A stretch of 64,000 bases of DNA from Onchidella celtica (lineage: Eukaryota > Mollusca > Gastropoda > Systellommatophora > Onchidiidae), in contig OZ007579.1 in NCBI GenBank assembly GCA_963931925.1, positions 52,210,257-52,274,256 on the forward strand. The letters run 5' to 3'. Positions 54,226 through 59,832 of this stretch are shown piece after piece. The stretch's first letter is position 1. Each line of letters opens with the position of its first letter. Made by a program: the position numbers and the translations under genes. The notes under the pieces were generated by a model that was not told where the DNA came from, searched no databases, and saw only the letters and a list, made by a program, of their open reading frames with translations.

Positions 54226-54862
54226 CTGAACAAGCTATTAGGGATTGACGCACTTAATACAACCGCCTACCACCCCCAGGCAAATGGCCTTGTGGAACGC
54301 TACTGGCGGCAGCCTATAGCAGCGCTCAAGGCCAGAGCCACAGGCCCTAACTGGTTTGCTGAAATTCCTATAGTGCTGCTGGGAATCCGTTCGTCTTGGC
54401 GTATAGACCCAGGCTGTTCACTGGCAGAGCTCGTTTATGGGTCTTCCAGCAGAATTTTTCGAACCCCAAAATTCTGCAACATTCGAGCCAGACATTCTAT
54501 TTTTGAAGCAACTGCAAAATATCATGAAGAATGCCCAGCCCTCGCCAACTACGCTCCATGGCAAACAACCATCATATGTGCCACAGAATCTGTCTTCCAC
54601 GGGGTATGTTTATGTTCCACATGACTCCAGACGCAACCCTTTACAGTGACCATATAATGGGCCATATAAAATTTTGGAAACCAACGATAAATACTTTGTA
54701 ATTAATGTGAACGGCAGGAGTGATAAAATCTCCATCGATCGCCTTAAACCAGCATATTTATCACAGCCAGATGACAAGGTAGCTGTGCCCCGATTATCAC
54801 CTCGCACCACCGTTATTACTCGGTCCGGACATGTTTCACGCCCTCCGTGTAGATTTGATTAA
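54226..54862 (+). pseudogene. Ty3/gypsy retrotransposon integrase C-terminal part, frameshifted
   Basis: The first frame holds LNKLLGIDALNTTAYHPQAN and GLVERYWRQPIAALKARA, the end of the integrase catalytic core (the N-G-L-V-E-R region with its Glu). A frame change near 54435 continues with EFFEPQNSATFEPD. An in-frame stop at about 54648 precedes NGPYKILETN and SIDRLKPAYL, the GPY/F module that ends gypsy integrases. The reading ends TAA at 54862. The 5' part (gag, protease, RT) is missing, and the unit is a 5'-truncated, decayed copy. Confidence 0.85.
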
Positions 54863-55114: not shown

Positions 55115-55212
55115 CTACTTTCTGGTACCGCGCGCAAGTGTCACAGCTTTGGAGTGTGATGCGAGGCATTTCCAAAACGGGTATGTACAGGAGTTTAGCT
55201 GGTGACCATGGC

Positions 55213-55256
55213 TGTATCATAATACCGAAATACCCCGGAATACCCCGAAATCCCCG
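55213..55256 (+). repeat. Left terminal inverted repeat of the PHD-OTU-MULE element
   Basis: Begins TGTATCATAATACCGAAAT and continues as an A/C/G-rich run with repeated CCCCGRAAT units. It is the inverted partner of 59469-59502. Confidence 0.8.
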
Positions 55257-55293
55257 CAACCCCGGATTTCCGCCTAATAGAGGTCTAAAATTT

Positions 55294-55381
55294 CCTGCGA
55301 GTTTTTGTTTACCTTGATCAGAGATCGAAGATTGTTCCTGCGAGTTTTTTGTTTACCTTGATCAGAGATCGGAGATTGTTT
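55294..55381 (+). repeat. 43-bp tandem duplication in the transposon 5' leader
   Basis: Two copies of a 43-bp unit starting CCTGCGAGTTTTTGTTTACC and containing TTGATCAGAGATCGRAGATT sit just before the ATG at 55387. They may be a promoter or leader element of the transposase gene, because TGATCA-centred sequences are duplicated exactly. Confidence 0.7.
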
Positions 55382-55386
55382 TCATC

Positions 55387-55484
55387 ATGCCACGTCCACG
55401 TTATCCTTGTACCTGGTGCACAGCCAACTGTGGCAAGAACACATCTTCCATTGAATGCTCTCTTTGTCGTGGTTGGATTCACAG
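55387..55484 (+). CDS. PHD-OTU-MULE transposase gene, exon 1: first half of PHD finger
   Basis: ATG in context tcatcATGCC, then MPRPRYPCTWCTANCGKN and ECSLCRGWIH; donor CACAG|gttagg. The zinc ligands so far are C8, C11, C24, C27 and H32. The 98 nt end in phase 2 and join exon 2 in frame to complete the finger. Confidence 0.78.
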
Positions 55485-55761
55485 GTTAGGATAATTGTAT
55501 AAATATATGTTGATACCATTAGCCATTTATTTTATTTATTTAGATAAGAATTGATGATTAGATTAAGAAGAGTGTGTGTGTCGCAAACTGCGATATTAAT
55601 TATTAATTATTGATTCATTGGGTTTTTTTACTTATTTCTTTATTCTCGGCTCGGTTGTCTAGGGGATGTATTTACCAGGAGTCTGAGGTCTGGAATCTGT
55701 ATACCCATCAATCATGTAACAATGGCATGAATTTACTCCTTGTTGTAATTGTTTCCACCAG

Positions 55762-55884
55762 GAGATGCGTTCCCATGGACTATGAGCAGTTCGCTGCTTG
55801 GACCTCGGAAGATCTTACATTCATTTGTCGCAGCTGTGTCTTCAGCGATTCCGGAGAGTACAAATATGAAGAAGCTCTGAACAG
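55762..55884 (+). CDS. PHD-OTU-MULE transposase gene, exon 2: second half of PHD finger
   Basis: Acceptor gtttccaccag and donor AACAG|gtaaat; 123 nt, phase 2 to 2. It supplies C35, then FICRSC with C55 and C58. The spacing C-x2-C...C-x2-C-x4-H-x2-C...C-x2-C with an aromatic two residues before the last pair is the PHD (C4HC3) pattern. PHD fingers read histone H3 tails, so a chromatin-targeting role is inferred. Confidence 0.78.
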
Positions 55885-55896
55885 GTAAATGATTAT

Positions 55897-56037
55897 CTGT
55901 CCTGCACCGCTGTAATCCTGCATCTGTCATTTCACTTTGCCGTTTTTTTCCCTGTGTTTATGCTTATGTTTCTGATCAGTTAATACTTGTGCAGCACTGG
56001 TTATACTCTAGTCTATGAGCAGGATTTAATGCAGCTT
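55897..56037 (+). repeat. 141-bp duplicate of the SGQN transposase 3' end, inside transposase-gene intron 2
   Basis: CTGTCCTGCACCGCTGTAAT through AGCAGGATTTAATGCAGCTT, matching 61241-61381 with about two or three differences. In the second copy this sequence contains the final codons and stop of the SGQN transposase. Confidence 0.85.
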
Positions 56038-56210
56038 GTAGGATCGAGTACCTAGTCTTCTCGGATAAGGACGAAAAAATTCGGAGGGCCATGTGCACGT
56101 TGCGCACGTTAAAGATACCTTGGCAGTTGGAAATCGTAAAGAGCAGGCCGAAAGGCCGCTGCCCGGGCAAAATTGAAATTAATAGATTAAAATTTATCCA
56201 TATCATCTCT
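56038..56210 (+). mobile_element. SINE fragment, Nin-like core, inside the PHD-OTU-MULE transposon
   Basis: TACCTAGTCTTCTCGGATAA then TGCACGTTGCGCACGTTAAA and GCCGCTGCCCGGGCAAAATT, about 95% like the copy at 29045 over the shared part. It lies in intron 2 of the transposase gene. Confidence 0.7.
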
Positions 56211-56413
56211 CCCCCCCCCCCCCCCCCCCCCGCCAGAACAAGAAATAATAAAACAAGTAAAGTGAGGTGTAAATGCCAAGGGCAGCGAACCTCCTAAAAT
56301 AAAGACCTCAAATCAACAGGTAAATGATTTTGATATATGTGAAACTGATTCACAACAATAATAATCATCAACACCATCATCATCTTAACAACAACAATAT
56401 CATTCTTTTCCAG

Positions 56414-56570
56414 ATTGTCGTCATCATCAACATCATCATCATCATCGTAACGACAACAATAATAATTATAAGAACAATAATAATCATCCGCACAAACAAC
56501 ATGCCTCATCATCTTAACAACAATATCATTCTTTTCCAGATTGTCGTCATCATCAAAATCAACCACACTC
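56414..56570 (+). repeat. ATC/AAT-rich repeat carrying two decoy copies of the exon 3 splice acceptor
   Basis: The string CATTCTTTTCCAGATTGTCG occurs at 56401 and 56526, and the true boundary (gtccccagATTGTCGTCAT) lies at 56616. Use of either upstream copy leads to an early stop. Confidence 0.75.
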
Positions 56571-56615
56571 TATATTTATAATGCTGTTTTAATAATAATC
56601 TCTTTTTGTCCCCAG

Positions 56616-57096
56616 ATTGTCGTCATTAACTGACAGTTCTTCTGCTGCACAGAGTGAAGACTTATTGCTGTCAACCTACAACAAAACTCTTGCAGTCCAA
56701 GCTGCCCTCCCATTGAATGCTTCCAGTGTGGATATTGTCGCTCGACAAGTGCTTCAACTATACCACCCTATCATGCTGAGCACACATGAGCCACTGTATG
56801 TCATTGGGGATGGTAATTGCATGTTCCGTGCTCTGTCCCTGGGGCTATATGGAACAGAAGCTCATCATCTGCACATTCGGCTTTTGACAGCCCTTGAAAT
56901 GATTAATAACAGAGAACATTATGACATTGACAATGATAACTTCATAGACCATTTTGGAGACGAGAGGTTGACGTTTGACAAGTATCCAACACTGGTACAT
57001 GATGTTTCAAAGGAGGGTGCATATTGCGGTTTAATGATCTTATCTGCAGCAAGTGCAAACATGTTTCCAATCATACTGTCCTCCATTTCAGGGTAG
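56616..57096 (+). CDS. PHD-OTU-MULE transposase gene, exon 3 first frame: OTU domain, N-terminal half
   Basis: Acceptor tttttgtccccag. It encodes a Ser-rich linker, then VIGDGNCMFRALSLGLYGTE, with the catalytic Asp (D139) and Cys (C142) of an OTU cysteine protease, then helices and GAYCGLMILSAASA. The frame closes at TAG 57094-57096, but the homologous sequence continues in the +1 frame from about 57050. OTU proteases cleave ubiquitin or similar modifiers. Close relatives by motif are the vertnin-like and OTU-containing transposon proteins of invertebrates. Confidence 0.8.
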
Positions 57097-59311
57097 TTAC
57101 TTCCTGTCAGATCCACTTACAAAGCAGATCAGAGTAAGAGGCGTACCTCAAAAAGCTTCACCCTTTTTAACACTCATGTGGACCACATCTTATGTGCCAA
57201 AAACCCCTGATGAATTTCGGCCCAATCATTTTGTATTGTTGAGAGACATGCGAAAGTCAGCTTATGTTAATTTGACACTTCCAGAACAGTCCACCCCAAA
57301 AGTGGTTGGAACAACATGCAAACCAAGCTTTTCAGTGAGTTGCATTGATGATAGAAATGTTGATGCTGCTGTGAATGATGATGTTGAGGATGATTGTAAA
57401 AATTGGAAGCATTTGTCAAATGATGATTTCCTTTCTTTGGACATGTTGATTACACATTTATCATCACATGAAACTGTAACCAATTCTGTGCCTCGAGGTA
57501 ACAAGGACAATGTGTATTTTTTGGTAAATAACCAGGAAAATTTGGATAATCGCAAATGTGGTCGGCCGTCAAAGTTTTTGGATGATTGTGGTTCATGGAC
57601 GGAAGGGACGACAAACAAAAGTATTTTTGTAAAACAGGGTGGACGGCTGACCAAGGTTGTACCTAAAAATGACATTTATTGCCTGCAGAGACGTAAAGAC
57701 AAAAAAATTGTATTCATCCCACTTGAACCACAGCCGGAAAAGGGTGATGTTTTGGTTTTGCATCGGTATTATTGCATACTGGTGACAAAACCAGAATACT
57801 CCAAAAGAGTGTCTTGGATTGGGGAAAGTGACAAGAGTAGAGCAGTGGCCTGTGTGGAATACCGAGGGATATTCCCTGGCAACATAGCCCATGGTTTATC
57901 GTCTAAGAGACAAAGGGATTACATTCGAACACAGCCACAGGTGTTAGAAAAAATGAAAGAGGAATTAAGGAGTGGCAAGCGACCAACAGAAGTGTATAAT
58001 GCAGAGGATACACTGGACGCTCCACGCAGCTTAAAGCAAGTTATTTCCACAAAATACCAAATGAACAAAAAGGAACGGCCTCACACAAAGGGTTCCAATT
58101 TTGCTGATCAGATAGCAAGTCTGGAAGAGTTGCAACATGGTTTTCCTTTCATTCAGTGTATAATAAAGCGATATAAAACTGTACGCAGCTGTATACTTTA
58201 CACTGATGAACAAATGCAGGATCTCGTCAGATTTTGTTGCCCTCCTTATTCTGCCAACTCAACAGTTTTAGGTATAGATAAAACTTTCAACCTGGGCGAC
58301 CTCCATGTCACTGTGACAGCTTTCAAAAATCTTGCTCTTATCCGAAACAGAACAAACAGTCATCCTATTTTTTTTGGTCCATTTTTTCTGCATGGCCAGT
58401 CAGATGGAGATACATTTTTTGATTTCTTACATCACCTTGCAGGCAAAATCTCCGGCTCAGCCATACCCACAACAAGTCCTGTCATAGGGAGTGACGAGGA
58501 AGCCGCTCTGAAGCTGGCAATGAAAAGGGCCTTCCCAGAATCAAAGATGTTGTCTTGCACAAGACACCTACAAACCAATTTGACACAGTTTTTACAGGAT
58601 AAGGTGGGGCACAATGTTTCTGAACGAAATGCAGTGGTGCGGCAGCTCTTTGGTGTTGATGGGTTAATCAATACCGCTATAGACGAGCATCAGTTTGAAC
58701 TGTCATTAGAAGCCTTTGCAAATGTTGCCGCAGAGACATCACAAACGCTGGCAAATTACATCAGAAAACAAGTGATGCCGCTGCTCATTGAAAATATGAA
58801 TGCGATGTCAAAACCAGGACTTTTAGTTTCATCCTGCTTGTGGACAAATAATAACACAGAAAGTCTAAATCATGTCTTGAAGTTGGAAACAAATTGGAAA
58901 TCTTTGAAATTGGCAACGTTGGCAGAAACATTGCACAACGTCGTAAAGAAACAAACAAGGGATGTCAGGAGGGCCATTGTTGGAGAGGGTGTCTTTTCAC
59001 TGGATCCACAATTTAAACACTTCAGTGTCACACCAGCAGATTGGGAAACATGGACATCCAATCGCAAACAGAGACATCTTTCCAAATTCCTAAAGACCTG
59101 CGTTGTCCTCAAAGATGTTATCAGGCCGTCAAATGAGGAAGTGTGCCCAGTAGTGTGCCCAGTAGTGGCACCGAAGGGCTGTGGAAAAAAACCATGTCAG
59201 CGTAAGAGAAGGTGCAATGCCAAAACGATGTCAATTTCAAAGAAAAAGCTGAAAAAGCCAACGGATGATGTGAATGATGATGATAATAACAATGCTGGTC
59301 TAGTTGGTTAA
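57053..59311 (+). CDS. PHD-OTU-MULE transposase gene, exon 3 second frame: OTU C-terminal half and MULE transposase
   Basis: A 752-codon open frame ending TAA at 59309-59311. The ATG at 57053 is probably not a real start. Residues from about 6 on (SYCPPFQG, DPLTKQI, FRPNHFVLL) finish the OTU domain, with the likely catalytic His at 59. The transposase core has D409 (GIDKTFNLGD), D481 (IGSDEEAAL), C502-x2-H505 (SCTRHLQ) and E603 (NNTESLNH), the D-D-[CxxH]-E layout of MULE transposases. A Cys-rich basic tail (KKPCQRKRRC) and an acidic end follow. The frame is otherwise intact, suggesting recent activity. Confidence 0.85.
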   Translation: MQTCFQSYCPPFQGSYFLSDPLTKQIRVRGVPQKASPFLTLMWTTSYVPKTPDEFRPNHFVLLRDMRKSAYVNLTLPEQSTPKVVGTTCKPSFSVSCIDDRNVDAAVNDDVEDDCKNWKHLSNDDFLSLDMLITHLSSHETVTNSVPRGNKDNVYFLVNNQENLDNRKCGRPSKFLDDCGSWTEGTTNKSIFVKQGGRLTKVVPKNDIYCLQRRKDKKIVFIPLEPQPEKGDVLVLHRYYCILVTKPEYSKRVSWIGESDKSRAVACVEYRGIFPGNIAHGLSSKRQRDYIRTQPQVLEKMKEELRSGKRPTEVYNAEDTLDAPRSLKQVISTKYQMNKKERPHTKGSNFADQIASLEELQHGFPFIQCIIKRYKTVRSCILYTDEQMQDLVRFCCPPYSANSTVLGIDKTFNLGDLHVTVTAFKNLALIRNRTNSHPIFFGPFFLHGQSDGDTFFDFLHHLAGKISGSAIPTTSPVIGSDEEAALKLAMKRAFPESKMLSCTRHLQTNLTQFLQDKVGHNVSERNAVVRQLFGVDGLINTAIDEHQFELSLEAFANVAAETSQTLANYIRKQVMPLLIENMNAMSKPGLLVSSCLWTNNNTESLNHVLKLETNWKSLKLATLAETLHNVVKKQTRDVRRAIVGEGVFSLDPQFKHFSVTPADWETWTSNRKQRHLSKFLKTCVVLKDVIRPSNEEVCPVVCPVVAPKGCGKKPCQRKRRCNAKTMSISKKKLKKPTDDVNDDDNNNAGLVG

Positions 59312-59468
59312 ATTGATATGAATAATGAAGATAAGTTTGTTCATTGCCATGTTTCTTGCTGATGGGATTGTATGAACATTCAAATCTTAATAAAACAGAT
59401 GGAAATTCCTTTGATTTCAAATTTCCATTTTTCTTTCTTCTTTTGGTAACAGGTCTGGTGATGCTAAT

Positions 59469-59502
59469 GGGGGATTTCGGGGGATTTCGGTATTATGATA
59501 CA
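59469..59502 (-). repeat. Right terminal inverted repeat of the PHD-OTU-MULE element
   Basis: GGGGATTTCGGGGGATTTCGG then TATTATGATACA. Its reverse complement matches the left end for 19 bases without a gap and then approximately. Confidence 0.8.
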
Positions 59503-59832
59503 CCGGGTGATCATGGCTATACAGAAAGACAACACAATGTTATCACCTATTATTGTTATTTTCACATAGTTTTCTCTGCGTGCGTCTTCTTGTTGGCATT
59601 GTATGATCATTATGCTTCATAGAGGAATAATGTTAAGCATTTACACCTACTAGGAATGAAAATTTATTACGGAGAAATGTGTGTATATAATACTCTTCAT
59701 TTTGTTGTGGTATTTTGTGTCTTGGGATCTTTGCCACTGGCTTTTTTTTACGTCACTACAAGAAAATCATGACAATGTCAGTCTTGCACATGAAATAACG
59801 CCATGACTCAGACAGTTCAATATTTTTGACTG

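Follow-up and report, generated by a model that had tools for sequence, protein, structure and literature searches.

Whether one transposase gene can join a PHD finger, an OTU-like cysteine protease and a MULE-type DDE core is the question raised by a DNA transposon in the genome of Onchidella celtica (assembly GCA_963931925.1). The element lies in the stretch of contig OZ007579.1 (label C13) from position 52210257 to 52274256, here called the window (64,000 nt), to which all coordinates below refer. Our analyses indicated that the PHD-OTU-MULE combination is a three-module architecture which recurs in related copies and in distant animals, and that the copy in the window is dead. The element is very probably a recently inactivated cut-and-paste MULE whose open-frame relatives have the order PHD, OTU, beta domain (DDCGxW) and DDE, each with a proposed role. 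This reading is based on the terminal inverted repeats (TIRs), the 9-bp duplications, the sister copies, the common gene structure and the conserved OTU and DDE catalytic residues.

Three protein searches (6, 4 further and 80 proteins), in which only candidates sharing most words were scored, yielded 90 homologues, P0010 being matched in the OTU part alone. When these were scanned with a PHD-region profile, four (P0005, P0006, P0007 and P0042) showed a complete PHD and four others half a PHD: P0001 has the first half, and P0055, P0075 and P0014 have the second. Of these eight, all but P0075 and P0014 had contributed to the profile. PHD, OTU and MULE were found together in the single predicted proteins P0005, P0006 (where the PHD is weak, Pfam 0.39) and P0042 of Styela clava, which is above the Pfam curated cut-offs (PHD 26.8 vs 24, OTU 27.3 vs 23.3), and P0055 carries a PHD half, OTU and MULE on one chain. 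The first-pass annotation had placed PHD, OTU and DDE in one gene and would have given this up if homologues never linked the PHD exons to the OTU-MULE exon; the modules are linked in P0042, P0005, P0006, P0007 and in divergent host loci. A tree built by a quick method after short and odd rows had been set aside (54 of the 91 remained) showed complete PHDs in two of its three main branches, namely the window branch, which also includes the half-PHDs of Macrobrachium, Littorina and Elysia, and a branch of Styela with P0005 and P0006; no complete PHD was seen in the 11 rows of the third. The PHD label requires three changes on this tree, and as few were obtained in 46 of 500 shuffles.

The protein search of the host genome gave 79 matches from the 59 of 115 candidates that were scored; 30 loci were examined with flanks of about 1.5 kb, and four short upstream stretches (L044, L045, L046 and L047) were added. 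The PHD profile matched at E<0.05 in 10 of these 30 loci: L014-L016, which belong to the window subfamily, L018 and L036, which are one deleted copy, L037, whose match is on the downstream side, and L025, L028, L039 and L042. Both PHD halves were identified in three of the five divergent loci examined upstream, L019 with L045 (44% identity), L025 with L044 (43%) and L028 (36%), and in L042 (34%; L046 upstream) profile positions 18-67 lie in one frame. First-half readings stop after W-I/V-H-R in the window, P0001, L028, L044 and L045, and the L028 donor, CACAG/GT, is like that of the window. L025 and L028 lie in frames of 981 and 990 codons, respectively, with no stop inside the match and with OTU, PNHF-type His, DDCG, second-D, CxxH and E motifs; the frame of L028 includes the second PHD half, the OTU motif and the DDE motifs. 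Pattern matching located the first-D motif in L028 and not in L025, and in L042 it missed the His and second-D motifs, such a miss being no proof of loss. In L028 and L037 (C1) the transposase match is also followed downstream by a first-half PHD reading of identical letters, as though another copy started at that point.

Inverted repeats were present at 55213-55246 and 59469-59502, as expected of the TIR-bounded unit first described, and comparison of ends and 9-bp duplications with the sister copies moved each end 3 bp outward, from 55213 and 59502 to 55210 and 59505, so that the element spans 55210-59505. The 5' TIR (55210-55246, plus strand), common to the sister copies, is complementary at 32 of 37 positions to the imperfect 37-bp 3' TIR (59469-59505, minus strand). 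A 19-bp TIR sequence has only two matches in the window (at most 3 mismatches; 0.02 expected), both of them element arms, and an exact pattern search of 1.14 Gb in 43 contigs gave nine TIR matches, two of which are the window element's own. The flanking 9-bp target site duplications (TSDs), GGTGACCAT on the left (55201-55209) and GGTGATCAT on the right (59506-59514), are identical at 8 of 9 positions, a level reached by 74 of 200000 random 9-mer pairs drawn from the window. The copy on C10 also shows 8/9, within a G-run and therefore weak, and the duplication is 9/9 at the same offset in L009, L010 and L011. The family of copies with a common TIR and target duplication by which the element was to be confirmed was recovered: two full sister copies, L011 (C4) and L013 with L007 (C10), share 98.6 and 98.8% identity with that of the window, two others, L009 and L010, are internally deleted (about 1.9-2.0 kb each), and L012 is a 5' fragment. 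In L009 (C1, 31.48 Mb; TSD 9/9) a deletion fuses exon 1 to exon 3 sequence, which is the L018/L036 reading, giving a non-autonomous derivative.

Three exons on the plus strand were delimited. Exon 1 (55387-55484) contains the ATG and the PHD first half (C8, C11, C24, C27, H32; Y6, W30), exon 2 (55762-55884) the second half (C35, C55, C58) and a linker, and exon 3 (56616-59311, with an AG acceptor before 56616) the OTU protease, the beta domain and the DDE transposase. The GT-AG joins 55484/55762 and 55884/56616 put the PHD ligands and GDGNC in one frame; all eight C4HC3 ligands claimed by the first-pass annotation are present in joined exons 1-2, and GDGNC (D139, C142), read as the OTU catalytic start, stands in the frame of the PHD. 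The description of three in-phase exons had to be abandoned. Starting from the ATG at 55387, the joined frame runs for 233 aa until a stop at 57094, the cause being an 8-bp deletion at 57053/57054, located by alignment with L011 and L013; the missing 8 bp are present in both full sister copies, whose local translation runs in one frame. A different frame, open over 57038-59308, holds the histidine of the OTU domain along with the DDE core, and the residues numbered D409, D481 and E603 are not on one chain with D139 and C142; counted from 57038 the residues are D414, D486, C507, H510 and E608. In tblastn alignments, family proteins whose OTU matches flank the site keep frame 1 up to about 57018-57087 and take up frame 2 from 57053-57074. 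The deletion leaves the cysteine of the OTU domain in one frame and its histidine, with the transposase, in another, and since it breaks the frame the window copy is unable to make the three-module protein; at most it could yield a peptide with the PHD and a partial OTU, plus a separate transposase frame. Exon 1 is identical among the window, L011 and L013, and exon 2 shows zero differences between the window and these two over 118 aligned sites.

The MULE DDE core (58160-59100, plus strand, limits approximate) has its aspartates at 58277 and 58493, CxxH at 58556-58567 and its glutamate at 58859. The predicted fold of P0042 matches the transposase of ISCth4, which we take to be a member of IS256. 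The DDE catalytic residues are strongly conserved across the family, and MULE was found at E<=0.01 in 41 of 52 rows of alignment A4. The spacing in the window, D-71-D-121-E plus CxxH, falls within the 60-76/120-135 given for MULEs in an arthropod survey (PMC13359780). TIRs, a target duplication in the 8-11 bp range (here 9 bp) and a MULE/IS256-type DDE core, the marks of MULE/Mutator elements, all occur here, which bears out the initial assignment to a MULE-type transposon with TIRs and target duplication. The Pfam comparison proposed with that assignment gave matches to PHD (E 0.039), OTU (E 2.5e-4) and MULE (E 2.3e-5) in the window, all of them under the curated cut-offs; direct homology is stronger.

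Upstream of the DDE core lies a beta-rich domain with DDCGxW (57419-57937, plus strand), in which D, D, G and W are invariant in the 41-row alignment A5 and kept in 40-44 of 46 rows in A4. The domain is conserved and confidently predicted (AlphaFold2 predicted local distance difference test, pLDDT, 90.8) and had no match at E<=5 in the Pfam copy used; it may correspond to PF27108, a more recent family for which P0005 and P0042 have precomputed matches. P0002 (1474 aa) and P0003 (1477 aa) carry four tandem DDCG-type beta domains before a MULE-like region whose DDE residues are lost, show no PHD or OTU, and are possibly domesticated.

Searched against the 90 homologues, a small database, with composition correction off, the window PHD part matched P0007 (9.6e-14) and P0042 (1.5e-11). 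Among the 90 proteins, exon 2 with the start of exon 3 matched P0055 at 1.1e-13. Exon 1 is 58.6% identical over 29 residues to P0001 of Macrobrachium nipponense, whose PHD part stops at the same residue. The best match of the family PHD profile was Pygopus, a reader of histone H3 methylated at K4 (H3K4me), and the window PHD contains the C4HC3 ligands and the pocket Trp and Tyr of H3K4me-reading fingers. On balance the finger would bind the H3 tail methylated at K4, and it might, more tentatively, bias activity or insertion to open, promoter-like chromatin. The PHD of RAG2, carried on a separate protein of the transposon-derived V(D)J recombinase, may serve as a working analogy. A finger that reads no methylation and acts as a structural or protein-binding zinc module is the less favoured but still sizeable possibility. 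The histone-reading proposal comes from the letters and profile similarity, the region is modelled at low confidence, and hand alignment gave no counterpart in the window PHD of Pygopus D352 and E360; against such a module, the pocket Tyr Y341 aligns with Y6, and the pocket Trp W366, essential in Pygopus (PMC2726290), aligns with W30, which is kept in 6/6 rows of alignment A6 covering the site.

PHD and OTU are each already known on transposon proteins, and their combination seems undescribed; our literature searches gave no published description of PHD with OTU and MULE, and unpublished or Repbase-only entries could exist. That the family is the Rehavkus or MuDR-6_HM group of Repbase under an existing name is to be weighed, and we consider it doubtful. 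Rehavkus, a MULE-related group of arthropods and annelids, is listed in PMC6446971 with a PHD finger, a 9-bp TSD, TIRs of 26-400 bp and a minisatellite near the 3' end; the PHD in the transposase, the duplication and the TIR length of the window element all agree. No OTU is listed for it there, and no minisatellite was found before the 3' TIR of the window, the only repeat being a 12-bp unit of 2.3 copies at 59140-59167, inside exon 3. MuDR-6_HM, a Hydra MULE of group 14, has the entry 'Ovarian Tumour Gene' in Table 1 of the same paper and so shares OTU on a MULE transposase with the window family; that table lists no Zn finger, TIR or TSD for it. Both groups are compared here by their published descriptions. 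Ginger1 transposases of animals carry OTU, Ulp1 or, once, Ulp1 with PHD, and Ulp1 also occurs on Mutator elements (PMC2836005, where PHD is named in the Ginger1/Mutator alignment of the Figure 1e legend), but their DDE is of the Gypsy-integrase type, their extra domains are C-terminal and Table 1 of that paper has no entry with both OTU and PHD. The window element also has a 9-bp duplication instead of the 4-bp CCGG/CCGT of Ginger1. Deubiquitinases of the VTD class, some of them reported to be active, are encoded by Helitrons in PMC9741609, which calls transposon OTU domains untested, and OTU in Helentrons is mentioned in PMC6431247; these share a deubiquitinase-type domain (OTU or VTD) on a transposon protein but have a rolling-circle Rep-helicase and no DDE, and PHD is not mentioned in the consulted passages of PMC9741609. 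A word search of the main text of PMC13359780 gave no PHD or OTU, and PMC6875170 uses OTU in another sense.

The OTU-like cysteine protease (56785-57250, plus strand, limits approximate), with GDGNC at 56806-56820 and the His codon at 57227, was supported over this interval by tblastn of family proteins, and the window OTU part matched P0008 at 1.3e-44 in the 90-homologue database, again with composition correction off. The catalytic residues are strongly conserved across the family, and the predicted fold of P0042 matches OTU deubiquitinase domains; catalytic Asp, Cys and His and the OTU fold are thus present at the family level, and in the window copy the residues are split over two frames. 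These features point to an OTU domain that probably would be an active deubiquitinase. Most simply, it would keep ubiquitin from driving the removal of the transposase, or of repair and licensing factors at the cut. A protease (OTU, perhaps Ulp1-like) that is no deubiquitinase and processes the transposase precursor or another substrate is unlikely. A low-confidence linker (residues 285-375) does part OTU from the beta-DDE portion in the P0042 model, and viral deubiquitinases often also process polyproteins (PMC9741609); the closest folds, however, are those of OTU deubiquitinases. The N-terminus of P0034 (1010 aa) resembles, with weak scores, a Ulp1/C48 protease in the position held by OTU in its relatives.

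Several observations weigh against the three-module reading. The PHD-region profile showed no PHD in 82 of the 90 homologue records, many of which appear to begin inside exon 3, so that its absence there says little; P0016 has about 100 residues before the OTU motif with no PHD among them, and P0001 is without the second PHD half and the OTU-histidine motif PNHF. No PHD was found in the upstream DNA examined of L026 with L047 (43%), A4 omits 39 homologues, P0002 and P0003 with lost DDE residues among them, and the PHD region is of low confidence in the full-length P0042 model. A frameshift affects the window copy, other frame-changing indels occur in both full sister copies, and this exact subfamily yielded no intact member. 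The exon joins are predicted from sequence. Even so, that PHD and OTU-DDE are adjacent separate genes or captured host fragments joined on paper only, as the introns between the PHD exons and exon 3 might suggest, is highly improbable given that single proteins (P0005, P0006, P0042 and, with a PHD half, P0055) and the 990-codon frame of L028 hold the modules, the first halves end alike in W-I/V-H-R and the element ends enclose all exons.

The DDE core, perhaps held to the TIRs by the beta domain, would almost certainly cut and insert DNA. The idea of histone-guided targeting with deubiquitination appears reasonable because the PHD profile resembles H3K4me readers and the OTU residues are largely kept. 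A broader picture is speculative: an animal-wide transposon family in which an H3K4me-reading PHD would steer insertion or excision to active chromatin, OTU would protect the transpososome from ubiquitin-based clearance, and a new WRKY/NAC-like DNA-binding domain would accompany DDE, with a Ulp1-type protease able to refill the slot (P0034), as in Ginger1. In the family's open frames the transposase shares one chain with a putative deubiquitinase and a putative reader of H3K4me, which makes it possible to test directly what leads transposons to acquire ubiquitin proteases and whether histone marks can be read in cis by a cut-and-paste transposase.

Relative to both full sister copies, the window copy contains an additional 435 bp (55880-56314), mostly in intron 2, with the 15-bp direct repeat AACAGGTAAATGATT at 55880 and 56315 and a C-run. 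This insertion is interspersed-repeat-like, and no Rfam match to it was found. An insertion of about 8.7 kb interrupts the sister copy on C10 (L013/L007, about 30.62-30.63 Mb), and 5 bp of the element occur in both parts of this copy, which would suit a long terminal repeat retrotransposon as the inserted DNA. P0059 of Chionoecetes opilio (866 aa) joins the family transposase to an Elongator Iki1 domain (PF10483) in one gene model, either by gene-model fusion or by capture. Just upstream of the window element, the open frame at 54650-54862 resembles, by eye, the end of a Ty3/Gypsy pol gene.

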